Shown here: piece after piece, positions 24,931 through 62,073 of the stretch
How the letters are laid out: each line of letters starts with the position of its first letter
Position numbering within the stretch: the first letter of the stretch is position 1
Assembly (NCBI GenBank): GCA_029204225.1
Contig: CM055113.1
Location: 16,125,745-16,189,744 of the forward strand
Source: Diphasiastrum complanatum
Lineage: Eukaryota; Streptophyta; Lycopodiopsida; Lycopodiales; Lycopodiaceae
Direction of reading: 5' to 3'
Length of the DNA stretch: 64,000 nt
The notes under the pieces: generated by a model
The model's input: the letters and a program-made list of their open reading frames with translations, nothing else
Told to the model about the DNA's origin: nothing
The model's database searches: none
Made by a program: the position numbers and the translations under genes

Positions 24931-25308
24931 GATTTCTGACTACACTAATTGTGTAATGAGCATATTAACTTTTTAAATGGAGAATATTCATCTGGAAGAT
25001 AGAATCATCTTTACCTCTTTTGCTCTGCACATTTGCTTCACATTCTTGCTTCTTTTGCTCTTCACATTCTGCTTTTTAACGAGTCTGAAAGATTGGGCAA
25101 AGCAACTCACATCTTGTAGTAAGTGTGCTTGAGTGTCAGTATTGGCACTCAATGTGTGAAATCACCCTGAGACTTGAGAAAATTGCTCAGCACCTCAAAT
25201 TACCTCAGCTAGGTGTTTAGGTAGTGTGGTTGGCAGATTTGATCCACAGTTTATTCTTATGGTTGCATTCATATCCTAAATTGTAGTTTAGATATTGGGT
25301 TTGGACAA
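24931..25308. other. Upstream region of the pectate-lyase-like gene
   Basis: AT-rich, with no strong TATA box in the last 60 bp before the ATG. No repeat match was noticed. Any promoter would lie here. Confidence 0.4.
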
Positions 25309-26871
25309 ATGGATAGTAACATGAATCTGATCCAAATGTGGAATGCATTTTTGCTCGCTGCAGTGATGATGGGCAATATATTGATGACAGATTGCCGCAC
25401 ACTATCCCAATCTGTTGATGAATACTTTGTCTGGAGTGATCCTTTGGGAAATCTGGTCTACAAGCCCATGCCAAATGGGGACATGCTTATGGATTTCTCA
25501 TCTGTGGGGTATAAAGGCAGCGACGCTCCCTTCCCTTGTGCTCCAGTGATCAAGACACTGTGTCCCTCAGGTGGGGACGATACTGATCAGATTCAGGAGG
25601 CTATCGACGAGGTTTCGGCCATGCCTTTAGACGAGAATGGCCTGCGAGGAACGGTAAAGCTCACTCCAGGCACATTCAACGTCGGTAGCAGAAGCATTGT
25701 GATTGAAGCTAGCGGTGTAGTACTTCAAGGTAGCGGCGTATCAGAGACAGGCACGGTGCTGAATGCGCATGATCTTCCAGCAACTATCTTGTTTAAAATC
25801 GGAACGTATGGCCAGATTCAAGGAGTTGGGCGTCCGGCCATCATCAGTGAAACTGTGCCGTCGGGTTCAAGAATACTGATCGTTGATTGTTCAGACGGCT
25901 TTCAAGTTGGAGATAAGGTGCAGGTCTTCTGGCCCTGGACAGACTCATGGATTGCCATGATGAATATGACTGAACTATGGGGAAATCGTCACGGAACATT
26001 GACCACTATCGAGCGTGTAGTCAAAAATATTTATGACAACGTTCTTATCTTGGATGTTCCAGTTCCATTTCGAATAGATCAGCAGTATCTTGGTGGAGAA
26101 CATGTTGCAGGAGTTCAGCTCATTCAACTGCCAGTTGAGAAAAGAATCTCCAATGTGGGCATTCAAGATTTGATGGCTGTGAAAGACGCCACCATGCCCT
26201 ATGGCTCGGGGAGCTTCCTTCACAGCGTCAACGTAGAAGATGCATGGTTCAGTAACATGGTCGTGGTGGATTTCGGTGGCAATCTAACGGCCCGGGCCAA
26301 CATCAGTGGAGCTCAAGCTACTGTGTGGCTCAGTGGCAGCAAGATCACAGTGGAGAGGCTAAACCTCATCAGAACGATTCCAGCTAAGTCCCTTGGTCCC
26401 AAGCCCTTTGATATCGCTCTGGAAAGTCCTGCTCAGCAGATTCTGGTACGAGACACGCATGTGGCAGGAGACTACCAGATTGCCCTGCTTACCAACAACG
26501 GAGTGCAGGGTCCCAATGTCTTTTACAACTGCAGAAGCTCGGGGAAGAACCACGCCCAGCCGCATGCCCTCTTCGCCACAGGACTGCTTTACGACAATGT
26601 GCAGATGGACATAGAGTATGGGACTCTGGACTTTATCAACCGGGGGCTTACAGGATCAGGAGCAGCACAAGGCTGGGCTGTGGCCTATGGTGTGGCATAT
26701 AACTGCAGTGCTTATGCGATTAATGTGCTGAGTCCTCCGGGGGCATATAACTGGGCCCTCGGGTGCAATGGGCAATCCATAAACAAAGATACACGGGTGA
26801 TTGGCTTAATAGATCCATCCATAACCTCGCTATATGAAGCCCAGCTCCTGGCAGCATCAACAATATTTTGA
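25309..26871 (+). CDS. Secreted pectate-lyase-fold protein (parallel beta-helix)
   Basis: A 520-residue open frame in one exon, higher in GC than its surroundings. ATG at 25309 is followed by further Met codons, and a hydrophobic stretch (about residues 8-27) looks like a signal peptide. Around residue 88, G-G-D-D-T-D-Q-I-Q-E-A-I is the start typical of the Pectate_lyase_3/pectin-lyase-like beta-helix superfamily. Later V-V-L-Q-G-S-G-V-S-E-T-G-T-V-L and many Val/Ile/Gly/Asn-rich turns fit beta-helix coils. N-glycosylation sequons N-M-T, N-L-T, N-I-S and N-C-S agree with secretion. Likely a cell-wall polysaccharide-acting or wall-associated protein; substrate and catalytic residues cannot be named. 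No frameshift or stop is seen, so it may be functional. It lies alone among transposons. Confidence 0.85.
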   Translation: MDSNMNLIQMWNAFLLAAVMMGNILMTDCRTLSQSVDEYFVWSDPLGNLVYKPMPNGDMLMDFSSVGYKGSDAPFPCAPVIKTLCPSGGDDTDQIQEAIDEVSAMPLDENGLRGTVKLTPGTFNVGSRSIVIEASGVVLQGSGVSETGTVLNAHDLPATILFKIGTYGQIQGVGRPAIISETVPSGSRILIVDCSDGFQVGDKVQVFWPWTDSWIAMMNMTELWGNRHGTLTTIERVVKNIYDNVLILDVPVPFRIDQQYLGGEHVAGVQLIQLPVEKRISNVGIQDLMAVKDATMPYGSGSFLHSVNVEDAWFSNMVVVDFGGNLTARANISGAQATVWLSGSKITVERLNLIRTIPAKSLGPKPFDIALESPAQQILVRDTHVAGDYQIALLTNNGVQGPNVFYNCRSSGKNHAQPHALFATGLLYDNVQMDIEYGTLDFINRGLTGSGAAQGWAVAYGVAYNCSAYAINVLSPPGAYNWALGCNGQSINKDTRVIGLIDPSITSLYEAQLLAASTIF

Positions 26872-27314: not shown

Positions 27315-29338
27315 CAAGTGTTGGAATCAGATGATCAAAACACAATGTGTGCTATTCCAATGTGGCAATCCATGCAATCATCTTCTCCGCCTGCACAGGT
27401 CCACTTTAATGTTATATAAACAGCCTACTTTGGTTGTCATAATGCAACTTTTTCAACACAAATTATGTTGTTATTGTATTTCTCCTATGTTCCTCTCCAT
27501 TTACATGTATCTCTTGTTTCTTGATTCATGATCTTTGTTATAATGGTAGTTCTAATTCATAGTTTCCCATAACCTGAAGAAAACCTGGCATCCCACCCTC
27601 AACTCCTAGCCACCCACTTATCTACCTGAACCCAAGAGGGCTCGTCCCAAGGGACAAGAGATAATGTGCATTTGCTTCTTATGAGGAGAAGAACCTAAGG
27701 CCCTAATTACTTATGAAACAAGTGTGTATGGGACAAGTGTGTAGGAAATGGCATCGTTGGGCAAACTCAATGACAGCCACAGCTTTGTGCTGGCTTGCGC
27801 CACCGTCTCCTCCAACATAACCAACATCAAGATAGAAATCAACCTACTATAAAAAAAATACAAATCTACCAAAGTACACCAGCTAACGTAAATCAAGATT
27901 AGCTTCAATCAAATAAAAAATTGCAGGCAACGTTCCAAAGTTGCACTTTGCTGAACGCCACGTTGATTAGTCGGCCAAGTTTGTGGTTTTAACCAAATGT
28001 TTTTGTTGTATATATTTTATTAGAATTGGTGACAATGGTGAGGAACTTAGTAGCCAGCCAGTTTAGTGGGCCTTGATTTGGTTTAGGGTAAAAAATGCAT
28101 GGAGAAGACATCCAATTCAACTTGAATAATGGAGCTAGAGTAACATTTTAGTGAAACTAAATATAAGTAGGAGAGTTAATGTACATTGAGGAGAAGCTAC
28201 ATTGAATAAACAAATGAGAATAACAAAGAGAAGAGCAAGTCTAGTTATATTCATGTATGGATTCATCTGTCCAAAATAGTAAATTTTTCATATATCTCTC
28301 TCTATGTTCTTTCATTCTTTCGCTCTTTCCATCCACTCAGCCATCTCCTTCATGATTTAAAGATTAGACTAAATTGTCAGAGAACATTTGGGTTTAATAT
28401 AAGCAAACTAGAGTCACAAAAACGATTAGAGATCTCTAAGGAATCTGAGGTAAGAGATTGGTGCCAATATGATTATTAGGCTCATAGCAAATTGTTTCTT
28501 ATTGTAGCTTCTATGTAGAAGGTGCATTTGAGCCTTCTTAAGTGAAATCTGTGCCAAAAAAGATTTCATAGCAAATGGTTGCACCTTCCATGGAAAAGGT
28601 GCATGCTAATTTTTTTTTGTGTTGTAGTTTTACTAAAAAAATCTCCTCAAGCAAAATTTGTGCTAAAAATCTCATATTTAATAGAAAATCTTTTTTAGCA
28701 AAAATTTTGCCCAACATAGATTATCAAGCCAAATTTTTTATATTTTCAAATTTGTCTATATGGGAAAAAATTAAATGTAGAATTTTTTTTAAAATTTTAA
28801 ATCTTACAGATTATTCAAAAAATAGATATTTGACAAAAAAAAAAAATTCAGAATATTTTGGTTTTTTTAATTCTTATAATTACTCTATTCGCTACAAAAC
28901 GAATAAACTAATTATAAAAATATATATACCTTCAAAGTTAAATTTTAGAACTTATCTCAATTATTATAAGCTTAAACTATCGTAAATCAATTATCATTGA
29001 GATTTACTAAAATTGAAACATACTATTATTTCTAAAAAGTTTTATAATCATACATATAAAATATAAAATATTTCTAAAATTTGCATATATAATATTTAAA
29101 AATTTCAATATATTCAATAAACATTTCAAATAAAATAAAATATAATCCTTTTGAATATTAACAAAAAATATATATCTATATATATAACAAAATAGCATTC
29201 AAATTTGAACTTTGAATAAATAACATTGAAAAAATAATTATTTTCATTTTTATTTTCATAGAAAATTTGAATATATTTCCAATTGTTCAAAAGTCAAAGG
29301 AATTGATATTTTGAGAGAGTTTTTTTTTTTTTTTGTAC
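27315..29338. other. AT-rich intergenic region, no gene seen
   Basis: Very AT-rich, especially 28600-29340. Open frames here (for example 28575-28985) have Lys/Asn/Ile/Phe composition expected from base content. No RNA gene or repeat partner was recognised. Confidence 0.5.
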
Positions 29339-30605
29339 AATATAGAAAAGTATTGGCATATAGTATTTCTCAAATGGGAAATAGACTCTAAATATTGATT
29401 GTTCTCAATGAGCTCATATTGGATGACAAAGTTTAATGAATATAAAAAACAACCATTGAACAATTGGAGTTCAACAAAACTTTGTAATCTCTAGATTTTG
29501 TTCTATAGGATTGTATAAAGTTTTTGTAGTTGAAGATGAATCTAAAATAGTTTTGGTATGTCTTCTGTCCTTAATTACCTGATTGATCACATAGTTTAGA
29601 TAACTCATATCTTGCTAAAAATCAAGTTGGAAGAATAATATTGAAATCGATAATTTTTCTTGAAGTAAAAGATTTTGGAATGATTCTTATATTTTCTGAG
29701 TTGTGTGTTGGACATACACTCCAGTATCTTTTAATCATTAATTGTGATTTATAATTTTGCTAATTATAGTTGACGAATCATAAAATTCTAAATATTTACA
29801 ATTGATGGATCATGAATATATGCTTAATTGTTATTAAGTAAATATGATGCTTCTTATGTATAATGAGTAACTTACGATCTTCTAAACGAGTGACAATTAG
29901 ATCAGTAATTTGAAAAATTTAATTTCTTTACTCTAACGGTTAATTGAGAATGTATGTATCTTACATGCATTTTCATAAGATAATTTGTTTTTGCTTATAG
30001 AGGGGTTGCTTAATCTAGTGGATGCTATTCTGCTATAGATTTAGATACATTGTTGATTTCTTGCATGTGATGCTAAAAATGGGACATTTAACTCATTAGA
30101 GTAGTTGTAGTTCTCTAGATTGAGTTATAAAAGTATGAGGCTTCATAGATCTCCTAGAGATTTTGGTTGATTGAATTATTGTGCTTGGAATATTGGGATA
30201 TTCTAGTAATATACATACCGAAAAGCATTGTTGTCTATAAGGAATTGTGGACAAGTTTTAGACTATAATTGAAATGGAATTTCTTTAGCCTTGGAACATG
30301 GTCTTTCAAATAATGAATGATTCAACTAGTGATTCATGTAAATTAAATTTGCATGAAGGTGATATTATTGGTTTGGAGAGAATCATACCCAATAGGAAAA
30401 TTTATTTCTTATTGTACTTCTAGAAGTTGATGTAGTACTTTAGAGCAGAGATAAACAATTGGGGAATTGTTCTATCTCTAAATACTTATTTGATATTGAA
30501 ATCAGACTAAGGATAATGATTTTATGAATAAGTGCGAAAGTTAACAAATTGGTTTTTTAGCTTTTTGCCAGCTTTGAGGATAGAACTTGTTTAAGGGAGG
30601 AAGAT

Positions 30606-31050
30606 TGTTACGTCCACATCTTGTACATTAGGATTCAAAATAATCTCACACTTGAATATTTGGTACTCCAGTGTACAAGATTATTAGTTATGCCACGTCA
30701 CTCCAAACTGGGTTAAAAATGTAATTAATAATCTTGTGAGAACTTAAATGCTCTAATTAGGACTTATGGAGCTAGTACATAGTAAGTGCTTGAAGTGCAT
30801 GTTAAGAAGATCAGAAGCAATTGGTTGAGAATTGACATCCTATATGGAATATTCCTAGGCTTTTGGAGTCTATATAACATGTAGGAACTCGCCCATCCAG
30901 GACCTGATTTTAATCAATCATTGTAGCTCGGGGGAGAAGCTGACTAGGAATTGACTCTTGGCTTCCAACTAGCTGGGTGGTTTGGCTCCACAATAGTCCT
31001 TTTGGAGCATGCAATAGGATCTAGAGGAACCTCACTTGATGATCCTTACA
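30606..31050 (+). repeat. LTR, 445 bp (unit A)
   Basis: Begins TGTTACGTCC after a purine-rich GTTTAAGGGAGGAAGA (polypurine tract) and ends GATCCTTACA. Homologous to 46527-46968 in unit B, and its 3' end matches 41935-42081, which is followed by a PBS-like site. The sequence inward codes decayed copia, so this is a 5' LTR, although no PBS survives beside it. Confidence 0.65.
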
Positions 31051-32040
31051 ATGAACATTTCAATCTTATATGTCTTATGGTACAAAGAAATTAGTTCATC
31101 TTGACGACAATAGTTCACACACTATTGAAGGTGAAGTCACAATAAGATTGAGCTTCCAAGCATGATCAATTCAAGTTACTACTGGATGTTATGTATGTAC
31201 CAAAATTGTTAACAAATCTGTTATCAATAGGCAAATTTACTAATTTAGATCAGAGGATAGAATTTGAATCCAATTAATGCATAATTTTTGATAGGACAAA
31301 TAAGGTCCTTGCACTCAAGAAGAGACATGGATACTTAAATATAGATTGATTTATTGTTCTTTTGAGACAAGTCAGGCCTTAAATACTTCACTTCTAGTTA
31401 ATAAAACATTACTTTGGCACTATAGGCTACGTCACTTGAATCATACATTTGTATCAAATAGTCCTTAGTACTTGATGTCAATTATCTAGACAAGGGTCCT
31501 TGTATGCCATAGCTGCATTGTCAGATTCCATTTAGATCAAGTCATAAGCATGTAACAACAAGTGTTCTAGATGTTGTTCATTCAGATATATGTGGCCCAA
31601 TGCAAATCTTATCTTTGGTTGGTACGAAGTTCTTTTATTACTTTTATTGATGAATTTTTGAGAAAAATAGCTGTTTATTTTAATAAACAAAAATTGAAAG
31701 CTTTCAACCTCTTTAGACAATTCAATGAGCATGTAGAACTCGAAACTAATAATAGAGTCTTATACAACCCAAATTCAAATTTATAATGGAAAAGCATTGA
31801 GTTCAGACAACATTGGTAAATACATCTCAACCAAATTCAAAGAGCATTGCCTTAGCATAGACATTGAGAAACACTTTCTTACTTCTTATTCACCTTAGTC
31901 GAATGGACTTACTAGGAGAAAGAATCGAACCTTAGTCAAAGCGGCTAAGTGTATGCTTGCTCACGTGACACTACCTAAGTTCTTTTGGACTTAAGCTATT
32001 TCCACTACAGCTTATATTTATCCAAATCACTTTTAAGTTA
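31051..32040 (+). pseudogene. Decayed copia protease-integrase fragment (unit A)
   Basis: Translated in pieces it gives V-M-Y-V-P-K-L-L-T-N-L-L-S-I-G-K (protease to pre-integrase link), L-W-H-Y-R-L-R-H-L-N-H, then V-L-D-V-V-H-S-D-I-C-G-P-M (first catalytic Asp region), F-I-D-E-F-L-R-K-I and S-N-G-L-T-R-R-K-N-R-T-L where the family has N-G-V-A-E-R. Many stops and frameshifts. It ends near Y-I-Y-P-N-H-F at about 32030, where family R begins. Confidence 0.75.
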
Positions 32041-33639
32041 ACCAATAAATCCTTCATAAAAATATCTGTTAACTCTGCAAGTATCAGTTCCAACAATACT
32101 TGATCATATGTCTATGTTCACCGACTAGGTTAAGTGCACCAAATAACCTAGTAATCATGAATACATCATAGATCCATACAAGATTTAATCGTGCACATAT
32201 GTGAATAATCTCACTATGACCGAGTACATACACATATGTCTTTATCTGGTAGATTTGTAACTGATCTACAAAAAAATTCTATTTCTCTTCAATAAATAAC
32301 ATATCTGAAAAATTCCTGAGACTAAGAACACATTCTCTCTCAAGAGTTTTCTAACCTCCTTACAACTTGGCACCAAAATTTCACCCAATTAACCCATCCT
32401 TGATCCAAGTACTCCAACAAAGATTAGGATGATTAAATATATGATCAAAATTACTTCTATCCCATAACAACTAGGATTAGTAACTTCTGATCTGACTCAG
32501 TAATACTTATAATGATTTCCAATTTCAATCCATCTCTAGTTCTAGATTGTTCAACATAATCTCTAAAAAATTTCTCTCAAATCTATACAACTAACAGTTT
32601 TTTTAATAGAATCTTACTCATCACTTCACCCATCATTTTTAAAGAAATTTCCAATTTCTTATAAAAGTTTGTCCAAGAGATGAAATAAATATATCAAAAT
32701 CGTGAAAAGTCAATAATAAGCACTTTCCAAATAGGATTCACTCTATTTTACACAGGACCTTTCCTCTAGATATTCTCAAGTTGAACACAAGTGACAGTAA
32801 CTATCATCTATTTGAGATGTATCTATGCATAAGAGATAATCTGGGATTTAAAAAATTGAAATTTCCAATATCTTGGAATATTTAAATTGCAAGCCTAATC
32901 CAAGTAGTAATTTACACGATTATAAACAGTCCTTCAGAAAAGAAATAATTCTCAAACTGGACGGATCATATGAATTTAATTTGATATCCAAATTTGAGAA
33001 ATTTAAAAGAATTAAGGGTTCTTTAAAAAATGAGAAATAGCTTTAAGGGCTCTTTGATTTTGCAAATTATGAGATACTATTAATGGGTCCGGACTAGCCT
33101 CAAAATTTTTCAAAATACCCTTTAAGTAACCAATGGTCAATTTTTCTCATATCATGAATAGGTACTCAAATTTACCATTGACAATCAGATCTTTACAGTC
33201 CTAGAATTTGCTTTCCAAAATTACTGATGTCCCATACCACCAATTCTTCTTTCCAAATAACCCTTAACCACCATATCTGATAATCTAGAATTCAACCAAT
33301 TCATTCGGATATCCTATAACAAGTATAAGTACATATCAATATAACCAATCAATGAAGAATCAATAAATTTTATTTTCTGATAGATAACAATCCATTTACG
33401 AAAGGATGATCAAACCATAAGGCTTCACACATGGATTACTGTCAGATCTTAAGTATCTCTGGTTAGTAAAAACTTTATCAATCAAGGATCCTTATCCTTA
33501 AAAGAAAGCCATTTACTGTACTAACAATTTTTAGAATAAGAATTGACATAGCTAGTCTTGAAATGGATGCTTTTAGGTACAAAGGAGTGTATGTCTCTTT
33601 GTGCAATAGAATCTCGTCTTCATCCATCTCAAATTGTTT

Positions 33640-34165
33640 GTTATCTATTAGAAGATGTATGCGTATCATCATTTACATAGGTTTCAAAGTAAGATTCAAA
33701 CATATTTTGCATTGCTTCATCGTGTTGTACCTCATCATCATCATCATCATTAGAATCGAGTGCATTACTCTTTTCTCCAATTGTATTTTCCTCTTGAATT
33801 TGTTTCATTCTTTGTTCCCTCATGTCTATCAAAATTGACGTTGATTGTAACTAAACATGGAAGGATAAACTCCATGGAAAGGCATTCGATTTATTGGTTA
33901 CACACATTAAACAAATTCAATAAGTGACAAACATAGATTGACGAACATTATAATTAAAAACAATCATATAAAGTCAACAAACCTCAACGTCTTCCAAATT
34001 CGATGGTTGACCCTCATCTTTTTCGTCCAAACTTCCACAAATGATTTTCAACAATGCGTCTTTCACACATCTCTTGCCCATCACACTTGATGCATGTCCA
34101 CCATATTTTATCTTGAAAATAGTTTTTTTGCGAGAAACAAAAATCAAGTACATGTCACTATTGTG
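33640..34165 (-). pseudogene. Exon-like remnants of an unknown gene (unit A)
   Basis: Minus-strand pieces: 34115-33982, K-Y-G-G-H-A-S-S-V-M-G-K-R-C-V-K-D-A-L then G-Q-P-S-N-L-E-D-V-E with a GT donor; and 33832-33641, M-R-E-Q-R-M-K-Q-I-Q-E-E-N, a Glu/Asp-rich stretch (five Asp from a GAT repeat) and M-F-E-S-Y-F-E-T. Unit B has a similar acidic exon plus a further upstream exon-like piece. The acceptor CTTGCAG of unit B is CTCGCAA here. Family unknown; perhaps a transposon or regulatory protein. Confidence 0.35.
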
Positions 34166-34990
34166 CAAAAAGTACAAAAAGGACCAAGAGTGGATCCTAA
34201 TCTGATCCTCAAGAGGGATTGGTTGTCAGATTACTTGATCTATCAATCTACTTGAGATTAAAATCAATCTAGATCAATTCTAGACACAAAATCCTAACAA
34301 GAACAATAATTAATTGAAGGTAGGTGTACTTTCTGGTTTCACGTGTGAAACACTGTCTGAGTGCGAACTCCGACCTAAAAATCAAGTACACATTGATAGA
34401 ACCTCAAAACAATCGAAACAAATGTAGACAAATGGAGAGAATCACTCAAAATTGCTTCCAAAACCAAGATTGGTGTCTCACATTGATTATGGCCAAATGT
34501 GGCTCTATATATACAATAAGTGGGAGCTCGTGGTACTGATCATCCCTATGATCCCACATGTGTGAAGGTGCTTTGTCATATGATGATTCATCATGCAAAA
34601 CTGACACTTGGACAAAACCTTCTATTTTGAGCACTTTTGGCCCATTTGCCTTCTATATGGAGATCTTTTTGGATATCTTCTATAAGTCAAAATTCGCCTA
34701 CTTCAGCTTATTCCACACATGTGATCTATCCTCTACACATGGGATATGACACCTAACCAAAGGATGTGGCTCATGCAATCAATAGATTGATGCCATGTGT
34801 CATATGTCTAGAAAACTAGTTTTTGGCCTTTTTAGCCACTAGAACTTGAATTAAATCATATGTACAACCTATATGATTATGTTACATGACAAGTACACTA
34901 CTTTTACATGTGTGAACAGGCTCACACATGTGTGTTTATCTATATACAAGATTTTTGGCCTCTACCAAGCTTATTTTTGCATTTTTCACA
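34162..34990 (-). repeat. E3 3' LTR
   Basis: 829 bp from TGTGCAAAAAGTAC to CATTTTTCACA, TG...CA. On the inner side the minus strand shows the purine tract GAGGAG before TGTGAAAAATG, as in E1 and E5. It inserted at the end of unit A, after CACTAT. It carries several CACATGTG/CACGTG-type palindromes. No second LTR was found to the right. Confidence 0.75.
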
Positions 34991-35128
34991 CTCCTCAAAA
35001 ATCTAGCTTGGTAAATCTAGCTTGATGGAAAACATGATGATCTTGAATTTGACTCCATGGGCTGAATTGGTCTTTGCTGGTTCAAAAAGGTGTGAAGATC
35101 AGCCAATGAACTTGATGTTGACTTGCAA

Positions 35129-36679
35129 TCACCATATCCATGATAGTGCTTCTTTGATGTTGACATCTTTGATGAACTTGAGAGCTTTGCACCATCTTAG
35201 CACCTCCAAAATTGATTCCTTCCAAGTTTCATGTAGATGCTTGACCTTGAGGCTTGCTCCTTCTTCATGTGCATGCTCCTTCATGAGAAAATAAAGATTT
35301 CTTCTTGATTTATTAGGATCACAAAGATCTAACATCATGTTACCACGATCTAGAGAAATAGACTCATCCAAATTAGCAAGACTATGCATGCTATAATAAC
35401 AAAGTGTTTGCATCATATCTTCATGCTTGTTTACCATGCCAATCTCAGATCCAATGAGGCTAAATACTTCATTATGGAGATAAGTGTCTTTAGAAGATGA
35501 TTCACTTACTCTCATAAAGAGTTTACAGTTTGCCTCAATACAAATTTTCAAACTATGAGTGAACAAATCACTTTTGCTCTAGCATGACTCAAGAGCATAC
35601 ATTTGATGAAATAACCATTTGCTTTCTAATTGATCTAAAATCAATTTCGGCCTTTTAAGAGCATCATCTATGTTCTCAAGAGAGAGTTCATACTCAACTA
35701 GTATGGCTTTACGCCAATTTTGAGATGCAATGATCTCACTAAAGCAAATTGATTTATCAAATGATATAAGAGAAGTAAGTATGAAATGTATACCACATGA
35801 GATATGCTCCTCTTTCCCTTGAAATGTGAGCCACATGGACTCAACCATATTTCTTGAGTTTCTTTCTGGAATCACAATTTGAGAAGGTCTCTCCTCCTCA
35901 ATCCTTGGCACACTTGAACCTTGAGAAGGATTCTCCTCCTGAATCCTTGGCACATTTGAACCTTGAGATGACTCCTTAAGATCCTCTTCATGGTGCTCCC
36001 TTTTTATGGAAATTCGAGACCTCCATGTCTCATGATAATCACAACAAGTATGACCATACAATATGCACTTCCTATGATTATGAAGATTACTTATGCTAGA
36101 AACATAAGTCCAAAAATCACCACAACTTGGCATGATTTTTCCAGTATTGAAATCAAAAGGTATTTCCATCTCAATAAGGCTAACTACTTGCTTATGGATA
36201 TAAGTGTCCAGTTTGGATGCTTCACTTATGCTCATAAGAAGTTTACAACTTGCCTTTAAGATTGAAAACTTACAACTTTCATCTTTATGAATGAACACAT
36301 CATTCATGATCTTATTAAAACCAAAAGATCTTACATTATGAAGATATTTCCATTTCCTTGACCTCATAACTAATGTAAGCTTACAAGGAAAACATGCTTT
36401 GCTATACTTTAAGGCATCACACTCAACTAGTATTGCCTTAATCCACCTTTGAGATACAAAAATCTCTTCAAAGCAAAATGGTTCTTCATAAGTTGACATG
36501 AGAGCATGAATGAAACTATTTTCATTATGTGATTGCTCCTTATTCTTGATTGATTTCTCTTGGATAATAACAATAAGTTTGAACTTGTCCAAAGTTCCAA
36601 GCAAAATACTTTCCAAGGACATGAAATAAATGCAAGTTACTTTCATGAAAGTGACATCTATCTTTGCTAACATCTTCAA
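35129..36679 (-). pseudogene. E3 ORF with duplicated unknown module, one in-frame stop
   Basis: From ATG at 36679 the frame is open for 366 codons, meets a single TAG (35579-35581), and continues in the same frame to 35129. It contains a linker typical of copia pol between integrase and RT (E-E-E-N-P-S-Q-G-S, E-E-E-R-P-S-Q-I-V-I-P-E) and pre-RT-like words (F-E-E-I-F-V-S-Q-R-W-I-K-A-I-L and F-S-E-I-I-A-S-Q-N-W-R-K-A-I-L). RT and RNase H do not follow. Instead a roughly 150-residue module occurs twice, marked by S-R-K-W-K-Y-L-H-N and CKLLMSISEASKLDTYIHK, and by E-S-K-W-L-F-H-Q-M-Y-A-L and CKLFMRVSESSSKDTYLHN. E5 has a third copy. No catalytic motif is recognised. It could be a very diverged or rearranged RT, or captured host sequence. 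Confidence 0.6.
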
Positions 36680-37574
36680 TAATCTAGAATGATCTACAAA
36701 AGATCTAGCTCACAAACCTAAGAATCAATCTTCACACTAATGACTAGTCACTTGGAAACTTTGCTTTGGTCACTAAGACAAAAGCGCACAATCTTTGAAT
36801 CAAATCACAAAAGAAATCAGATCCAATGTCCTATTGGACTCATCAGATACCAGTGACTCCCTCTTTTGAAAATTGAAATGGATATGAAAAGATTTGACAC
36901 CTAGATTTTTCTTTTCACTTGACTAGTTCTCTCAACACTTGAGATTCTTGAACAAAAGATGGGTTTTGTTTCAAACACATGAAAATCAAACTTAATCACT
37001 TCTTTTGGACTCACTCTTGACCCAAATAATCTCACTCTTGAGATGTAGAATGAATTTGATTTGATTTGACAACAAACTATACCATCAAATTTTCACAAAG
37101 CTTAAAAAATTTAGACAACTAGAGATTCACAAAGATCTCAACCATGCATGAATACTCAAATATGGACTCCTCATTCTAGACATCCAGTGGGATCACAAAT
37201 TGACCCTCACACTCTCACAAAGAAAGTTGAATAGAACTAATTTGAGTTTCATACATTCTATGTCAATTTTTGCTCAACAAATTGAATTCAATCACTCCTA
37301 TTGGATTCCACCAATTACTCTACCTTTTAAGACTTGGAATGAAATTCAAAATCAAAAGTTGTGATTTTTCTCACTAAGATATTGTGCTTCAAAGAGCTAA
37401 TGCCACTTAGAAAGATTTGATCACTTAGGAGAAGACAAACTCTCCACCAATAACAACACAAAATGAGCTTCTAGATCTTGCCCTCTACAAAGGAAGGAAC
37501 TCTTAGAAAATTGGATCTCTCTCTACAACAAGCTATCCAATTTTTTGAAGAAATCAACTAGAAATCAACAAGCT
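36680..37574. other. E3 upstream region, no gene seen
   Basis: No gag or pol is recognisable. On the minus strand a sequence near 36852-36840 (TGGTATCTGATGAG) resembles a damaged tRNA-iMet PBS, but the adjoining sequence does not match the E3 LTR. Borders of the element on this side are unknown. Confidence 0.35.
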
Positions 37575-37835: not shown

Positions 37836-38131
37836 TGATTCATTGCCAGAGTTTCACTCTACATTCATGCTTCTTATTCCTTGGCTTGGGGGTGAAGCTT
37901 TTAGAGTTGATTGGTTGCTTCTACTTGGTTGGGTGGTTGTTCCATAGTGTGTTTTCCATTGTGGTTTATCTTGTAAGCAGGATCTTAGGGAGCTTCCCTG
38001 TTGTAAAGCTACCTTTACAAGATTTACTTCCGGCGCCACAGGCAATAAGCATTGTCCCCGATGCCAGTAGCGCCGGCGCCGCTCCCGGCGCCACTGTGAC
38101 TAGCATCCAGCCAGCGCCAATTTCCTATGGT
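37836..38131. other. Unassigned sequence with GC-rich patch
   Basis: 38025-38110 is unusually GC-rich (GGCGCC words, Ala/Gly/Ser-rich in translation) between AT-rich neighbours. No family recognised. Confidence 0.35.
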
Positions 38132-38995
38132 TGAAAATCTTTGATCGGTTCTAGCGAAGTCCAGAGAGCTCAGATCGATGTGCAATCACCTCACACGATC
38201 TAGGCATGATTAAAGGAAGCCTGGGTATCAATAAATTCTAGAGAGAGAAAATGACTTTCTAGAGAGAGAAAATCCTAGAGAGAGAAAACGTGCTTTACCA
38301 GCCTGGGTAGTGTACTTGGTATGAGGGGAGGTGGCGAATCTCACCAATACTATAGGGGAATGCGGGTTGCAACTCAGGGCGAGCTCCAACCAAGTCTCAG
38401 TCTCCCTTGCTGGAATGTTGTCCTGGCACTCGCCTTGGCATGCCAGCGCCCCGGAGACTAGGGTCGGTCACACACTTGAAATGTAACCTTCTTAGATTTT
38501 ATTTGTCGCGGCTTGTGGTTCTGAGTGTTTCTTGTATGAACGTGAATGAGTTAAGCTTTTGGGGAACGGGCTCTAACCTGTCGGTTGAGTTGGATGACTT
38601 GCTTGGGTGGAAGTTACCTGTTTATGGCTGTCCAGTCTGGTGTGGCGCCAGGTTGGCTTCTAGCGCTCGTGACGAAGCTTTCAGTTGGTTAAGTCTGATG
38701 TCAGTTAGACCGCTTGCTTGGAATGGATGTTACTCGTTTATAACGAAGCTTCGAGTTGGTTAAGTTTGATGTATGTCGGGCGATTGGCTCAGAGGGAAGT
38801 CACCCACATCGGGACCCCCGATCTGGCATGGCACCAGGTTGGATCTCAATGTTGGTCTCGAAACTTCAAGTTGGTTAAGTCTAATCTTTGTTGGCGAGTT
38901 GGCTGCTTGTATGTCAAGTGGGTTTGGATGGCAAGAGTTGAAGGCTGGGAAGCTAAGTCGTGGTTCCCGGCTCCCTTTGGGATGCCTGCGCTACA
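38132..38995 (+). repeat. LTR of a further retrotransposon
   Basis: Begins TGAAAATCTTTGATCGG and ends GCTACA, 2 bp before a PBS at 38998-39009 (TGGTATCAGAGC). A 315-bp piece of its start is inverted at 49889-50203. It contains repeated TCTAGAGAGAGAAAA words near 38242-38290 and three diverged copies of GAAGCTTNNAGTTGGTTAAGT near 38673, 38745 and 38855. The open frames inside are not conserved genes. Confidence 0.7.
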
Positions 38996-43927: not shown

Positions 43928-45182
43928 TCCAGTGTGTGAGAGTGATTTGTAGACCAATGGTTAGTGGGTACTGTAATGGTAATGGTAATACAAGCAAGCG
44001 AATTCATTGACTATCTGTTTTAGGGTATTTTGAAAAATTATGAGATAGATATTTGAATCCCAAATGGTATCTCATTATTTACAAAATTTGGAGGCCTTAA
44101 AATTTATTTCTCTTTTATTAGAACCCATATTTTTTATGAATTTATTGAATATAGGACAATTGGCCTTAATATAAATCCTTTCTAAGATGAACTAAATTCT
44201 GAAGGACTAGTTACTATTATAAGAAATTCTACTTCCATATGGATGTGAATTCGACTTGGAATATATTGAAATTTTTAGTTCATTCAGATTCAATGAAGGA
44301 ATGACTAAATTTATGGAATTTAGACTTCTTGAGCCCAGACGGTTTTTCTAATTGATACTCAATTATTGAGAGTAATATTTGTGTCACTTGGGATAAAATA
44401 TTTTATGATCTGGAAAAAAATTCTGGTTTGTAATAGTGTCGGATGTTCATTATTGACTTTTTTTGTAATAGTGTTAGACGCTCAATACTGACATGCTTAT
44501 GACCTTTTAATATTTTAAACATTGTTTTGCGAGGAACTTTTTAATTGAAATTATGGAATTTCTTTTAAAAAAAAGGAGATGAAGTGATAAGATTGCATAA
44601 ATTTCTTAGAGGAATCCAGTACTATACAAAAGTTGGACTATCCAAGGAAAATAGAGGAGCTCTCTAGGGATTGTTGAGAATAATCTAGAACTAGAGGAAC
44701 TTTGGAAATTGAATTGTAAGTTATTCGTGTCTATTGATAGTAGAGATAAAGATTAAATTTAAGTTTCACTGATCGAGTTTACCAAATACCATTATGTTAT
44801 GGAAAAAATAGATTCAAATAAAACTCTAATCTTAATCTTGTGACCAAAAATATTTTGTTTATGTACATATGAACAAGTGATGTTTGGAATAGTTACTTGT
44901 TGGTTAATGGTTCTTTCTTTGTGAAAGAATAATTTATAAACTTAGTGATGGTTTAGAAGAGGTTCTAAATGTGGTGTTATTACTAGTTCGCCTACACCTA
45001 GACATTTAAAAATTCTAAATCATTAGCAATTAACTTGAATAGTTGGATTACTCTTGAATGAAGTTAATTAAGTTAATAGTGTAAAGAAGATTCACCAGGA
45101 ACTGTTTGTTTTAATCTATATTGCTTATAAGACACATGATTTGTAAATCACTATGATTTTTTAGTAAAAGTTATGTGTATAA
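43928..45182. repeat. Family-R repeat, inverted relative to 1-1230
   Basis: Diverged reverse complement of 1-1230 and of 32050-33250: for example 44960-45080 (AATGTGGTGTTATTACTAG, CTAGACATTTAAAAATTC) against 370-470. No gene. Confidence 0.6.
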
Positions 45183-46526
45183 AATATAGAAAAGTATTGG
45201 CATATAGTATTTCTCAAATGGAAAATAGACTCTAAGTATTGATTGTTCTCAATGAGCTCATATTGGATGACAAAGTTTAATGAATATAAAAAACAACCAT
45301 TGAACAATTGGAGTTCAACAAAACTTTGTAGTCTCTAGATTTTGTTCTATAGGATTGTATAAAGTTTTTGTACTTGAAGATGAATCTAAAATGGTTTTGG
45401 TATGTCTTCTGTCCTTAATTACCTGATTGATCGCATAGTTTAGATAACTCATATCTTGCTAAATCAAGTTGGAAGAATAATCTTGAAATTAGTAATTTTT
45501 CTTGAGGTACAAGATTTTGGAATGATTCTTATATTTCCTGAGTTGTGTGTTGGACATACACTCCAGTATCTTTTAATGATTAATTGTGATTTATAATTTT
45601 GCTAATTATAGTTGACGAATCATGAAATTCTAAATATTTATGATTGATGGATCATGAATATATGCTTAATTGTTATTAAGTAAATATGATGCTTCTTATG
45701 TATAATGGGTAATTTACGATCTTCTAAACGAGTGACAATTAGATCAATAATTTGGAAAATCTAAATTTCTTTACTCTAACGGTTAATTGAGAATGTATGT
45801 ATCTTACATGCATTTTCATAAGATAATTTGTTTTTGCTTATAGAGGGGTTGTTTAATCTAGTGGATGCTATTCTGCTATAGATTATAGTTTAGAGGTGCT
45901 TGTGCACTAGGTTCAATCTAGATCTTCGTAAATTGTAGGAGACAAGTAAATCTATTGAGATTTAGATAGATTGCTGATTTGTTGCACGTGATGCTAGAAA
46001 TGGGACATTTAACTCATTAGACTAGTTGTAGTTCTTTGGATTGAGTTATAAAAGTATGAGGCTTGATAGATCTCCTAGAGGTTTTGGTTGATTGAATTAT
46101 TATGCTTGGAATATTGGGATATTCTAGTAATATACATACTGAAAAGCATTGTTGTCTATAAGGAATTGTGGACAAGTTTTAGACTATAATTGAAATGAAA
46201 TTTCTTTAGCTTTGGAACATGATCTTTCAAATAATGAATAATTCAACTAGTGATTCATGTAAATTAAATTTGCATGAAGGTGATATTATTGGTTTGGAGA
46301 GACTCATACCCAATAGGAAAACTTATTTTTTATTGTACTTCTAAAAGTTGATGTAGTACTTCAGAGCAGAGATAAACAATTGGGGAATTGTTCTATCTCT
46401 AAATACTTATTTGATATTGAAATCAGACTAAGGATAATGATTTTATGAGTAAGTGCAAAAGTTAAAGAATTGGCTTTTTAACTTTTTGCCAGCTTTGAGG
46501 ACAGAACTTGTTTAAGGGAGGAAGAT

Positions 46527-46968
46527 TGTTTCGTCCACGTCTTGTACATTAGGATTTGAAATAATCTCAAACTTGAATATTTGGTACTCCAGTGTACAAG
46601 ATTATTAGTTATGCCACGTCACTCCAAACTGGGTTAAGAATGTAATTAATAATCTTGTGAGAACTTAAATGCTCTAATTAGGACTTATGGAGCTAGTACA
46701 TAGTGAGTGCTTGAAGTGCATGTTAAGAAGATCAGAAGCAATTGGTTGAGAATTGACATCCTATATGGAATATTCCTAGGCTTTTGGAGTCTATATAACA
46801 TGTAGGAACTCGCGCATCCAGGACCTGATTTTAATGAGTCATTGCGGCTCGGGGGAGAAGCTGACTGGGAATTCACTCTTGGCTTCCAGCTGGTTGGGTT
46901 GTTTGGCTCCACAATAGTCCTTTTGGTGCATGCAATAGGATCTAGAGGAACCTCACTTGATGATTACA
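46527..46968 (+). repeat. LTR, 442 bp (unit B)
   Basis: Copy of 30606-31050; begins TGTTTCGTCC and ends TGATTACA. Confidence 0.65.
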
Positions 46969-47950
46969 ATGAATATTTCAATCTTATATGTCTTATGGTA
47001 CAAAGAAATTAGTTCATCTTGACGACAATAGTTCACACACTATTGAAGGTGAAGTCACAATAAGATTGAGCTTCCAAGCATGATCAATTCAAGTTACTAC
47101 TGGATGTTATGTATGTACCAAAATTGTTAACAAATCTGTTATCAATAAGCAAATTTACTAATTTAGATCAGAGGATAGAATTTGAATCTAATTAATGCAT
47201 AATTTTTTATAGGACAAATAAGGTCCTTGCACTCAAAAAGAGACATGGATACTTAAATATAGATTGATTTATTATTCTTCTGACACAAGTCAAGTCTTAA
47301 ATACTTCTCTTCTAGTTAATAAAACATTACTTTGGTACTATAGGCTAGGTCACTTGAATCATACATTTGTATCAAGTAGTCCCTAGTACTTGATCTCAAT
47401 TATCTAGACAAGAAGATTGATTTCCTTGTCTGTCATAGCTGCATTGTCAGATTTCATTTAGATCAAGTCATAAGCATGTAACAACAAGTGTTCTAGATGT
47501 TATTCATTCAGATATATGTGGCCCAATGCAAATCTTATCTTTGCTTGGTACATAGTGTTTTATTACTTTTATTGATGAATTTTTGAGAAAAATAGATGTT
47601 TATTTTAATAAGCAAAAATTGAAAGCTTTCAACCTCTTTAGACAATTCAATGAGCATGTAGAACTCGAAACTATTAAAAGAATCAAAGCATTGAGTTCAA
47701 ACAACAATGGTAAATACATCTCAACCAAACTGAAAGAGTATTGCCTTAGCATAGACATTGAAAAACATTGTCTTACTTCTTATTCATCTTAGTCGAATGG
47801 ACTTAAAGAATCGAATCTTAGTCAAAGCGGCTAAGTCTATGCTTGCTCACGTGACACTACCTAAGTTCTTTTGGACTGAAGCTAATTCCACTACAGCTTA
47901 TATTTATCCAAATCACTTTTCAGTTAACTTCATAAAAAGATCCATTAACA
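46969..47950 (+). pseudogene. Decayed copia protease-integrase fragment (unit B)
   Basis: Copy of 31051-32040 with its own breaks. A readable piece at 47583-47792 includes I-K-A-L-S-S-N-N-N-G-K-Y where active copies have R-S-D-N-G-G-E-Y, so the second catalytic Asp is lost. F-F-W-T-E-A follows further on. Confidence 0.75.
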
Positions 47951-49488
47951 CTACAAGTATCAGTTCCAACAATACTTGATCATATGTCTATGTTCACCAA
48001 CTAGGTTAAGTGCACCAAATAACCTAGTAATCATGAATACATCATAGATCCATACAAGATTAATCCTGCTCATATGAGAATAATCTCACTATGACCCAAT
48101 ACATGTAACTGATCTACAAAAAAATTCTATTTCTCTTCAATAAATAACATATTTGAAAAATTCCTGAGACTAAGAACACATTCTCTCTCAAGAGTTTTCT
48201 AACTCCTTAAAACTTGGCACCAAAATTTCACCCAATCAACCCATCTTTGATCCAAGTACTCCGACAAAGATTAGGTTGATTAAATATATGATCAAAATTA
48301 CTTCTATCCCATAACAACTAGGATTAGTAACTTCTGATCTGACTCAGTAATACTTATAATGATTTCCAATTTCAATCCATCTCTAGTTCTAGATTGTTCA
48401 ACACAATCTCTAAAATTTTTCTCTCAAATCTATACAACTAATAGTTCTTTTAATAGAATCTTACTCATCACTTCACCTCATTTTAAAAGAAATTTTCAAT
48501 TTCTTATAAAAGTTTGCCCAAGATATGACAAATAAAAATATCAAAATCGTGAAAAGTCAATAATAAGCACCTTCCAAACAGAATTCACTCTATTATACAT
48601 AGGACTTTTCCTCTAGATATTCTCAAGTTGAACACAAGTGATAGTAACTATCGTCTATTTGAGATCTATCTATGCATAAGAGACAATCTGGGATTTAAGA
48701 AATTGAGTTTCCCAATATCTTGGAATATTCAAATTGCAAGCCTAATCCAAGTAGTAATTTACATGATTATGAACAGTCATTTAGAAAAAAAATAATTCTC
48801 ATACTGGACGGATCATATGAATTTAATTTGATATCCAAATTTGAGAAATTTAAAAGAATTAAGGGTTCTTTGAAAAATGAGAAATAGCTTTAAGGGCTTT
48901 CTGATTTTGCAAATTATGAGATACTATTAATGGGTCCGGACTAACCTCAAAATTTTTCTAAAATACCCTTCAAGTAGCCAATGGTCCATTTTTCTCATAT
49001 CATGAATAGATACTCAAACTTACCATTGACAATCAGATCTTTGCAATCCTAGAATTTTCTTTCCAAAATTACTGATGTCCCATACCACCAATTCTTCTTT
49101 CCAAATAACCCTTAACCACCATATCTGATAATCTAAAATTCAACCAATTCATCCGGATACCCTACAACAGGTATAAGTACATATCAATATAACCAATCAC
49201 TGAAGAATCAATAAATTTTATTTTCTAATAGATAACAATCCATTTATGAAAGGATGATCCAACCATAAGGCTTCACACATGGATTACTGTCAGATCTTAA
49301 GTATCTCTGGTTAGTAAAAACTTTATCAATCAAGGATCCTTATCCTTAAAAGAAAGTCATTTACTATACTAACAATTTTTAGAATAAGAATTGACATAGC
49401 TAGTCTTGAAATGGATGCTTTTAGGTACAAAGGAGTGTTTGTCTCCTTGCGCAATAGAATCTCGTCTTCATCCATCTCAAATTGTTTG

Positions 49489-50420
49489 TTATCCATTAGA
49501 AGATGTATGCATAGCATCATTTACATTTGTTTCAAAGTAAGATTCAAACATATTTTGCATTGCTTCATCGTGCTGTACCTCATCATCATCATCATCATTA
49601 GAATCGAGTGCATTACTCTTTTTTCCAATTGTATTTTCCTCTTGAATTTGTTTCATTCTTTGTTCTCTCATGTCTATCAAAACTTGACGTTGATTGTAAT
49701 AAACATGGAAGGATCAACTCCATGGAATAGCATTCGATTTATTGGTTACACACATTAAACAAATTCAATAAGTGACGAACATAGATTGACGAACATTATA
49801 ATAAAAAACAATCATATAAAGTCAACAAACCTCAACGTCTTCCAAATTCGATGGTTGACCCTCATCTTTTTTGTCCAAACTTTCACAACAGGACAACATT
49901 CCAACAAGGGAGGCTGAGACTTGGTTGGAGCTCGCCCTGAGTCGCAACCCACATTCCCCTATAGTATTGGTGGGATTCGCCACCTCCCCTCATACCAAGT
50001 ACACTACCCAGGCTGGTAAAGCACGTTTTCTCTCTCTAGGATTTTCTCTCTCTAGAAAGTCATTTTCTCTCTCTAGAAGGTCATTTTCTCTCTCTAAAAT
50101 TTATTGATCCCCAGGCTTCCTTTAATCATGCCTAGATCGTGTGAGGTGATTGCACATCGATCTGAGCTCTTTAGACTTCGCTAGAACCGATCAAAGATTT
50201 TCAATCTTGAAAATAGTTTTTCTGCAAGAAACAAAAATCAAGTACATGTCACTATAGCATAATATTCGAAGTCATGTTTAACTTATAGTAACAAATGTTT
50301 CATGAATATGAAAACATGCATGTTTATTATTTACCCTATTGACTTGAGTAGTGTCTCCAACACTAGACTGATCTAAATGTAATTCATCTCCTTGTGGTAA
50401 ACCACATATATGCACAAGTA
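49489..50420 (-). pseudogene. Exon-like remnants of an unknown gene (unit B)
   Basis: Counterpart of 33640-34165. The acidic exon (M-R-E-Q-R-M-K-Q-I-Q-E-E-N) is at 49680-49489. The Y-G-G-H-A exon is mostly replaced by an inserted LTR fragment. An additional upstream exon-like piece at about 50420-50333 reads G-L-P-Q-G-D-E-L-H-L-D-Q-S-S-V-G-D-T-T and ends at a GT donor (GGGTAAAT). Function unknown. Confidence 0.35.
49889..50203 (-). mobile_element. Inverted fragment of the 38132 LTR
   Basis: Reverse complement of 38132-38425: from CAGGACAACATTCC to GATTTTCA. The outer end coincides with the LTR terminus TGAAAATC, the inner end is a truncation. Confidence 0.85.
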
Positions 50421-51046: not shown

Positions 51047-51173
<127 letters not shown>

Positions 51174-51187
51174 GAAGAATTGAAAAA

Positions 51188-51905
51188 TATTATCTATGTT
51201 AGATATAGGGGTCTTATGTTTATTACATCAAGCATCTAGGTGTAGGATGTTGATAGGAACAAATTTGGCATAGATGGCAAATTATGCATTTCCACTTGTA
51301 ATGCCACTATTGAGCCAAAATAGAGTAAGAGGCTAAACTCGTGCCAATTAGAGTGTAGACAAGTGTAATGCCTTTGTTTGATGAATTCTAAGAGGTCCAA
51401 TAGGATTTAGAGGTGGAACCATGTGTGGTCCAATAGGAATTTGAGGTGTGCTTGAATATGGTTCAATAGAATTAAGAGGTGCATGGATCAATGGTCCAAT
51501 AGGATTAAGAGGTGACAAAGTGTGGTCCAATCATAGTAAGCATAGTGTTAGCTCATGGATCTACTAGTATCATTGTACTCCTCATTTTGGATCTAATTGA
51601 TTTGGTGATTATATGGATTTTGAGTGTTATTGGATTTCTAGCTTTCTCTCTCTACCCAAGAGCTCATGATGTTTTCTCTCTCTCTACCTGAGGAGAGCAG
51701 CTTGTTTTTACTTAGAATAGTTTTTAAATACTTCCCACACGTGTGAGTGAGAGTTGGAAGTGATTGAATGCATGTAGTAGTGTGTTTTTGCCATAGGATC
51801 TAAGATTGATCTTGAATCTCAATCTAATCTTAATCTTGGTGCATCTACACACCTTAGGAGATCACAAGTACATGTTGTGGACAATCCACACGTGTGAATT
51901 CAACA
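51188..51905 (+). repeat. E4 5' LTR, 5' end truncated
   Basis: Matches the solo LTR at 43103-43922 (reverse complement) except at its beginning, and ends GTGAATTCAACA directly against the PBS at 51906-51917 (TGGTATCAGAGC). Two CACACGTGTG palindromes lie at 51736-51745 and 51887-51896. The stretch between PBS and gag (51918-52662) is leader. Confidence 0.85.
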
Positions 51906-51917
51906 TGGTATCAGAGC
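51906..51917 (+). promoter_or_regulatory. E4 primer binding site (tRNA-iMet)
   Basis: Exact TGGTATCAGAGC with no spacer after the LTR. Confidence 0.93.
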
Positions 51918-52662
51918 CTACCTAAGGTTACCATGCATTTTGATCCATTTAAGTGAAAACTTTTCATCAATCTTGAGCTAGAAATTGTCAAGGCCCATTT
52001 TCCTAGCTATCTTGTTCAATTTTGGATCAAAAGAGATCAAAAGGACATTGATTGGGTCTGACCTGGTACTGTACGGAATCAGGTGTTCAGACACGTGTGA
52101 GGAACATCCAAATTCAGTTTGGAAGTTCTCTCTCATGCTTGATCCATTTATCTTGGTTGATAGTTTGTTTTAAAGCTATTTTTGTCTAGTTTCTTATGCA
52201 ATTAGTTTCATTCCATTTGGTTGAGCCAATCAGAAGTTATAAGCTTTTGAAGAGGGTTAGGTAGGGCACCTAGACCTGGGTGGACACATTTGGTTTGGTC
52301 AAGAGATTGCTTGGTTGTTCCAAAATCATAGTTGTATGCTTGCCAATCTCATCTATATGTGATCTAGGCATTGTTTTGAGATCTTAGCCATTTTGTTTCA
52401 TGCAATATCATTGTATTTGAGTCAAATTTGGTTTCTTAGAGTACTTCACACGTGATAAGAGTGTTTGATCCTAACTTTGCCTATACTCCATTATTTGATG
52501 TGAAATAGATCTTGTTTTAGAGAGATTTGTGTAGGCTAGTGAGAATCAATTCAGAAATAGTTGCAAGATCTTTTATAAGAGGAGATAGTACTCCATTATT
52601 GGATCCTATTGAGAGTGTGTAGCAACATTTATTGTTCATCATTTGAGTTTTCTTCACTTCAA

Positions 52663-53241
52663 ATGTCTTCAATGGGTTCATCCTTGTTGGAACCAAGTGA
52701 AAGATTGTCCACTTCAAACTATTCAATTTGGAAAATGAGGATGGAGTCCATCTTGATCCTTCAAGACGTGATGGACATAGTTGTTGGCCTTGAAGAAGAA
52801 CCACAAGTTCTTCAAAAGGTCCAAAAATACAAAAAGAGAGCTAGGATGGCTCTCCACTGCATTAAGATGAATGTCTCTAATGAGATATTGAGGGAGATAG
52901 GTACTTGTACAACAACCAAAGAAGCTTGGGATTGTCTCAAGATTATCTATGAGGCTAAAAATACCTCTAGGCTTCTCACTCTTAGGAATCAAATCTTTCA
53001 AAGTAGCCAAAAGAGTGATGAGAGTGCATCTAGTTATGTTTTGAGAGTAAAAGATATTCATAGAGAACTTGCTTGTATTGGTGATTCCATCAATCAAAAT
53101 GAGCTAGTTCAAGTCATTCTCAATGGCTTGAGAAGTGAATTTGATAACCTTGTCCAATCCTATGCCATTAAGGAGGAGCTACCAAGTTTGGAGGCTCTCC
53201 AAAGTGTTCGGAAGAGTCAAGACAAGAGTACAAGCTCTTGA
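52663..53241 (+). CDS. E4 copia gag, truncated by frameshift
   Basis: Begins MSSMGSSLLEPSERLSTSNY, matching the start of E1 gag (MASNGGIMLESSERLSSSNY). The upstream in-frame Met at 52609 is less likely. The UBN2 capsid-like region is complete (W-K-M-R-M-E-S, K-E-A-W-D-C-L, N-T-S-R-L-L-T-L-R-N-Q-I-F, V-I-L-N-G-L). Near 53200 a frameshift ends the frame; the missing linker can be read in another frame to 53430. The zinc knuckle beyond has a one-base T deletion in its first Cys block (about 53432-53445), so no intact nucleocapsid is made. Confidence 0.85.
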   Translation: MSSMGSSLLEPSERLSTSNYSIWKMRMESILILQDVMDIVVGLEEEPQVLQKVQKYKKRARMALHCIKMNVSNEILREIGTCTTTKEAWDCLKIIYEAKNTSRLLTLRNQIFQSSQKSDESASSYVLRVKDIHRELACIGDSINQNELVQVILNGLRSEFDNLVQSYAIKEELPSLEALQSVRKSQDKSTSS

Positions 53242-54738: not shown

Positions 54739-54802
54739 AGAAGCCCAAGCAGACGGTTCCATTCATGAGATGATGCCTTTTCATCCTATCCCTCGTCTTC
54801 AA

Positions 54803-58697: not shown

Positions 58698-58965
58698 CTC
58701 CTCCTTAAAATATATCTATCTGATGTTGGTGAAGATCCTTTGAGTTTGGATTCTTTGCTTTGCATTTGAAGTGAAGATGAACAAAGAATCCATCATAGCA
58801 GTATGCTTACCAAATCCATGATAAGTTCTCTTTGATAAAAATCTTTTCCAAATGCCTTTGAAAAATATTCCACCAACCTGCTACTATGCTAATGTACCTC
58901 CTACATGTCTGATGTCGATCCTGGGTATGAAAAGTCCACATACATGAAGCTGGCTGCAAGAAAGA

Positions 58966-60484: not shown

Positions 60485-60723
60485 AGAAGATGTAAGTTTT
60501 AAGGAACGACTTCCAACACCTTCAATTGCACATGCATCACCAACTGCTGTGTATATTGATGTCTTAGAATCTAGAACAGATTCAATAGAAACAAAAGAAT
60601 CTTTGGATCAACTCATATGAGTTGTTGCTCCACTATTAATATACCATGATACATCATTAAAAGGTAAAGAAGAAAAACTAGACATCAGAAGAGATGCATC
60701 TCCACAACTTGCATGTGAGTCTT

Positions 60724-61161: not shown

Positions 61162-61169
61162 GAATGTGA

Positions 61170-62073
<904 letters not shown>

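Follow-up and report, generated by a model that had tools for sequence, protein, structure and literature searches.

Helper-dependent long terminal repeat (LTR) retrotransposons mostly lose coding sequence or let stop codons fill it. TR-GAG elements keep gag only; LARD and TRIM elements have no long coding frame. A stretch of 64,000 nucleotides from the lycopod Diphasiastrum complanatum (assembly GCA_029204225.1, contig CM055113.1, positions 16,125,745 to 16,189,744 of the forward strand; hereafter the window) contains two elements, E3 and E5, that are compared here with these and other known systems. Like the TR-GAG, LARD and TRIM elements, E3 is an LTR element without full pol; unlike them, it combines the lack of gag with a long frame. 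E3 and E5 are best read, with a probability of roughly 0.55, as fossil members of a copia lineage that depended on helpers and was related to E4, another element of the window, with a pol cut down and rewritten past the hinge between integrase and reverse transcriptase (RT).

Two described cases come from wheat. In PMC9744471, the gypsy variants RLG_Sabrina NA2 to NA8 have the gag-protease part replaced by segments that encode short proteins; four of these show no homology to any other protein of wheat. They resemble E3 and E5 in being non-autonomous LTR variants with a standard coding region replaced; they differ in being gypsy elements affected in gag-protease, whereas E3 and E5 are copia elements affected in RT and RNase H, with a tandem module in E3. 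The same paper presents RLC_Angela as a non-autonomous copia element with degenerate coding sequence, many stops and frame-shifts, and a dependence on autonomous partners. The likeness here is helper-dependent copia; the difference is that the E3 and E5 modules have two stops in 800 codons. Retand elements (PMC11963269) likewise carry extra potential coding regions, and some are non-autonomous. They are gypsy elements, however, and their extra open reading frames (ORFs) are antisense and follow pol, ahead of the 3' LTR, instead of taking the place of RT as in E3 and E5. A literature search found no copia case like E3 and E5; this is weak evidence, subscription papers lying outside its coverage.

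The E3 frame and its module copies

A preliminary description, made from the letters alone, reported a frame of 517 codons with one TAG, two copies of a module in it and a third in E5, and a purine tract and LTR close after the frame. All of these are present (Table 1), the module copies being borne out by both protein and DNA alignments, and the frame lies on the minus strand, which that description left unstated. The frame divides into E3a and E3b, each with one module copy.

Over the same interval, the other minus frames contain 33 and 67 stops and the plus frames 31, 28 and 46. The longest open run is 366 codons within the interval (376 counted from the upstream stop), against a maximum of 189 in any frame among 2000 dinucleotide-preserving shuffles of the stretch; the same shuffles never held fewer than 17 stops, against two observed with the terminal stop counted. 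Chance is excluded as the source of the open frame and the module copies. Composition by codon position is coding-like in the whole frame: the bias is 0.0184 bits, compared with a shuffle maximum of 0.0085 and with 0.0200 for the RT of E1, a young copia element of the window. Taken alone, E3a (0.0211) and the E5 module (0.0153) fall below their own shuffle maxima (0.0250 and 0.0197); two noncoding stretches give 0.0103 (the E3 LTR, taken as noncoding) and 0.0029.

The CKL cores of E3a and E3b start 720 nt apart, exactly 240 codons, in the same frame. At the protein level, E3a and E3b share 37% identity over 126 aligned columns (E 4e-16), and E3b and the E5 module 34% over 274 columns (E 5e-28), E3b being compared with X at its internal stop. 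At the DNA level, the E5 module is 60.8% identical to E3b over 823 nt (E 7e-42) and 61.2% identical to E3a over 485 nt. All three copies share the core pattern CKL..SE.S..DTY. Across the 26 codons of the core, differences at the three codon positions number 9, 4 and 9; 8, 3 and 8; and 6, 6 and 4 in the three pairs. Many identical residues in the cores also agree at the third codon base, a pattern that conservation or recent sharing of the DNA itself would produce. Within the window, the module is seen in E3 and E5 only.

Inside the E3b hinge, two 42-nt units, 90% identical, form a separate tandem repeat (35879-35962, minus) that encodes a repeated SQGS.VPRI.EE.P unit.

Table 1. Coordinates, in window positions, of E3, E5 and the elements used as yardsticks
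Feature	Position	Strand	Remarks
Primer-binding-site-like string upstream of E3 frame	36839-36852	minus	Weak; TGGTATC as in other elements, then diverges; uncertain, no LTR found upstream
E3 frame	36679-35129	minus	517 codons, one internal TAG; final TGA at 35131-35129
E3a	36005-36679	minus	N-terminal leader and first module copy; open throughout; first ATG at 36673
Conserved core of E3a	36176-36247	minus	CKLLMSISEASKLDTYIHKQVVSL
E3b	35129-36004	minus	Hinge (copia-like, Ser/Glu/Pro-rich), putative RT entry and second module copy, to LSWIW-stop
Sole internal stop of E3 frame	35579-35581	minus	TAG
Conserved core of E3b	35456-35527	minus	CKLFMRVSESSSKDTYLHNEVFSL
E3 purine-rich tract	34991-35000	minus	Precedes 3' LTR
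E3 3' LTR	34162-34990	minus	TG...CA; starts TGTGAAAAATGC at 34990
E5 gag	60724-61209	minus	Copia type, truncated; Retrotran_gag_2 E 4e-11
E5 protease-side beta-barrel domain and integrase	59627-60607	minus	Pol_BBD E 4e-12; E4 comparison
E5 module	58807-59661	minus	Hinge and third copy; one internal stop; ends LSWIW-stop
Conserved core of E5 module	about 59136-59216	minus	
E5 purine tract	58698-58706	minus	
E5 3' LTR	57830-58697	minus	Lower end approximate
E4, copia	51171-54841	plus	Nearest E5 relative in the window; 5' LTR, primer-binding site, gag, protease-side and integrase parts; no RT part in the window
E1, young copia, RT-RNase H frame	4699-6297	minus	RVT_2 E 7e-79; LTRs 99.7% identical

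Identity of the module

The first half of the module appears to be the copia integrase/RT hinge followed by the RT entry, an assignment with modest but specific support. A three-copy profile of this region aligns with the E1 hinge at an hhalign E value of 0.0012, with a probability of only 19%, and scores 11.7 bits there against 4.8 for the best decoy. Among 1509 ORFs of the window, the E1 hinge is the profile's best outside match (E 0.0076; the runner-up reaches 5.3 bits, E 1.3), which lends modest support to the copia-type hinge named in the preliminary description. Compared as single sequences with the E1 hinge, E3b was equalled by 0 of 500 shuffles and E3a by 1 of 500.

The second half gave no signal as RT or RNase H above shuffled decoys: the 15 best-scoring domains for the RT profile were all decoys. 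As reported earlier, the E3 frame has no RT or RNase H motif (none of the strings YVDD, YADD, LKQ or KARL), and RVT_2 matched neither E3 nor E5 in the Pfam search that recovered it in E1. A profile match of the module to ordinary copia RT or RNase H, one of two outcomes that the preliminary description named as refuting it, was looked for and not found. Of the two ideas offered there, a strongly rearranged RT agrees with the first half, through the hinge and RT-entry profile; in the second half, RT and RNase H homology is undetectable. A captured host domain would agree with that lack of homology, but no positive evidence for it emerged.

Searches of Pfam, PHROGs, NCBIfam and PDB sequences returned chance-level matches only, PHROGs and NCBIfam covering phages and prokaryotes and so carrying little weight here. 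Dredd_N (E 0.14, below the cut-off) was the only Pfam match of the two E3 pieces; phrog_18487 (E 0.039) and 1urt (E 2) were the matches elsewhere, and the module profile found nothing in PDB. In non-plant collections, viral contigs yielded no relatives of the E1 RT, an E1 RT subregion or the module core, and phages none of the E1 RT. The E1 RT subregion did find two copia-bearing records among genome contigs, likewise not plant genomes; one, L001, was used as an RT yardstick. The E4 frame ends before RT, leaving E1 and L001 as the only RT yardsticks for the module.

Several placements were tried and rejected. By eye, the second half can be matched to three places in RT (the KARL region, the YVDD region, and the connection near YRKLIGS), none of them proven. 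The best-scored placement, on E1 RT residues 279-320, is marginal: in one test 10 shuffles of 500 did as well, in another 21 of 1000, and its hhalign score of 19.7 compares with a null 95th percentile of 17.9 and a maximum of 20.2 (100 shuffles). With L001 added, the score falls to 14.0 (null 95th percentile 17.05); against L001 alone, 135 of 1000 shuffles were as good; and in a decoy test the placement ranked under four shuffled targets. The C-terminal tail fared no better as the end of RNase H, 557 (E5) and 409 (E3b) of 1000 shuffles aligning as well with the last E1 RT residues. Nor was an integrase C-terminus accepted in the E3a leader: E4, the best C-terminal target, was equalled by 75 of 1000 shuffles, with hhalign at null level, and the alignments to E6b (61/1000) and whole E1 (72/1000) fall elsewhere in integrase.

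Copia context of E3 and E5

E5 supplies the context. Starting from gag, its order is gag, protease side, integrase parts, module, purine tract, and LTR. The gag is that of Ty1/copia elements, and the Ty1/copia order of integrase, hinge and RT side is seen both in the succession of integrase remnant and module and in the hinge and RT-entry profile. E5 and E4 are about 47-55% identical through gag, protease side and integrase, 58% over 622 nt of the 5' leader, and 64% over 146 nt at the LTR end. Relative to E4, the E5 integrase misses about 90 residues of its core, which we take to be those with the second catalytic Asp and Glu, and residues of what is presumably the zinc-binding motif are altered. 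Its lesions are few: a stop in the protease-side part and one in the module, with changes of frame between gag, protease-integrase and module.

The purine tract and LTR start of E3 are 78% identical to their E5 counterpart over 37 nt (E 0.02). Only 3 of the 127,969 16-mers of the window resemble the LTR starts of E1, E4 and E5 as closely as the first 16 nt of the E3 LTR do, these 16 nt being one of the 3. The final CA of the LTR is at 34162, and there a flanking repeat match stops: positions 34105-34161 are 93% identical to 50197-50255, and then the match breaks. Integrase is unsupported in E3, though the hinge is present. Domain search, E4 comparison and motif search found no functional RT or integrase in either element, as in non-autonomous copia derivatives.

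Frame conservation and protein drift

What has been conserved is the frame, not the protein. Ratios of nonsynonymous to synonymous substitution (dN/dS), from DNA-guided alignments, are 0.70 (0.40-1.13) for E3b and E5, 1.14 (0.68-1.84) for E3a and E5, and 1.07 (0.58-2.08) for E3a and E3b. The preliminary description named dN/dS near 1 across all copies as its other refuting outcome; values near 1 in all three pairs speak against a functional captured enzyme. By the same method, E4 and E5 give 0.17 in gag and 0.44 in the protease side, and E4 and E1 give 0.16 in gag, 0.29 in the protease side and 0.09 in integrase. Protein-guided alignments of the module pairs give 0.35-0.95; the DNA-guided values are preferred because protein-guided alignment favours matching residues. 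The module pairs also lack a third-position excess: their mismatch rates by codon position are 0.41/0.27/0.33, 0.39/0.36/0.33 and 0.28/0.29/0.29, in contrast to 0.25/0.18/0.54 for the E4 and E1 integrases.

Neutral drift simulated to 64% identity leaves a mean of 26.4 stops in the three modules (800 codons), against two observed, so that stops have not risen with divergence as in a neutral pseudogene. At 0.1 or more substitutions per site per lineage, none of 400 neutral runs had as few as two stops; the observed number fits about 0.02. The simulation assumes three copies independent of one another, although E3a and E3b are only partly so. This shortage of stops supports the earlier remark that the keeping of so long a frame is unusual and, together with dN/dS near 1, indicates that the frame was kept open while its residues drifted.

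A proposed history and its alternatives

The helper-dependent lineage proposed at the outset draws on observed features (the frame, the module copies, the copia context of E5, the 3' LTR with its purine tract, dN/dS, and the stop shortage) and, more modestly, on the hinge and RT entry. In this lineage, pol would keep the RT entry past the integrase hinge, whereas the catalytic RT and RNase H would have been lost by deletion or changed so far that they can no longer be recognised. In their place would stand a module of some 150 residues, doubled in frame in E3. E4-like elements would have provided, in trans, the RT and integrase with which the copies moved (the E4 copy of the window is itself truncated before RT), and selection would have preserved an uninterrupted translated frame and not an enzyme. 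Perhaps genomic RNA with an early stop would be open to decay; alternatively, the gag-protease protein, useful and still under selection (dN/dS 0.17 and 0.44), may have tolerated a translated extension. The two stops that remain would postdate the last moves. It is further conceivable, if doubtful, that a copia lineage was selected for the translatability of its genomic RNA and not for a protein, with a stop-free frame, near-neutral amino-acid drift, tandem doubling, and the RT position serving as a translated spacer. If true, a long frame with free amino-acid evolution would separate selection on protein from selection on translation, which are usually confounded, and would allow a direct test of whether the RNAs of plant retroelements require an open frame for survival or packaging.

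Several points weigh against this history. No 5' LTR was found for E3 by sensitive blastn, a three-mismatch search, or local alignment against shuffles, and none was recovered for E5; each element has a 3' LTR alone in place of an LTR pair with TG...CA ends, so neither is shown as a unit that moved. With no 5' LTR found and no gag seen, E3 is either reduced or else truncated at the 5' end and rearranged. There are just three module copies, in two elements, and the dN/dS intervals are wide, allowing 0.40 for E3b and E5. The E5 hinge alone does not match that of E1 (215 of 500 shuffles as good). Finally, when an intact RT was drifted neutrally without stops, it could still be found from its ancestor in all 60 runs made at 0.75 substitutions per site, in 49 of the 60 at 1.0, and in 15 of the 60 at 1.25; drift alone must therefore have been long, or helped by deletion. 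Given long drift or large deletions, a wrecked RT is possible.

The second half might instead have been captured from a host gene or another element, replacing RT and leaving the hinge and RT entry. It shows no RT or RNase H signal above decoys, yet the E5 protease side is still 32% identical to that of E1 over 194 columns (E 1e-28) and the C-terminal part of the E5 integrase 47% identical to that of E4 over 36 columns (E 0.005). The wheat Sabrina variants show that short, unrelated coding segments can indeed take the place of a coding region (PMC9744471). Capture is nevertheless unlikely: no match in Pfam, PHROGs, NCBIfam or PDB sequences rose above chance (an absence of little weight, no plant protein set being among them), and the module dN/dS is near 1. 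A working accessory protein of the element, evolving fast under relaxed or diversifying selection, would account for the kept frame, the coding-like composition of the whole frame and the conserved CKL..SE.S..DTY core; dN, however, is not clearly above dS, and the differences by codon position make amino-acid selection in the core weak at best, so that this explanation is quite improbable. Very improbable is an ordinary dead RT pseudogene, open by happenstance. It would fit dN/dS near 1 and the lack of an enzyme motif, but stops are more than 10 times too few for 64% identity and shuffles never came near the observed open length; it is already contradicted, unless divergence far outpaced the gain of stops.

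Other observations

In E1, the integrase-hinge frame and the RT frame lie several hundred bases apart (6298-6881). The gap is largely covered by an antisense ORF of 229 residues (6107-6796, plus) that matches no family convincingly (HisKA_3 E 0.003, below the cut-off), possibly a recently captured gene piece.

Elsewhere in the window, 29336-34161 and 45180-50255 form a near-duplicate of about 5 kb, with main blocks 93-96% identical and a copia-like integrase remnant. The second repeat copy includes a segment of about 320 bases (49889-50214) that is also present, inverted, at 38120-38425. An open frame of 542 codons (25243-26871, plus) matches nothing in Pfam or NCBIfam, and its PDB matches are at chance level.

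Two database records deserve mention. The yardstick L001 (PBTY01000079.1), titled as a Rickettsiales metagenome-assembled genome, contains an intact copia gag-pol frame of 1577 residues, which most likely marks the contig as a eukaryotic contaminant of a bacterial bin. L002 (NZ_CP104070.1), titled as an Alicyclobacillus plasmid, has broken copia RT and RNase H pieces in a "complete" bacterial plasmid record, which looks like eukaryotic DNA in the assembly.
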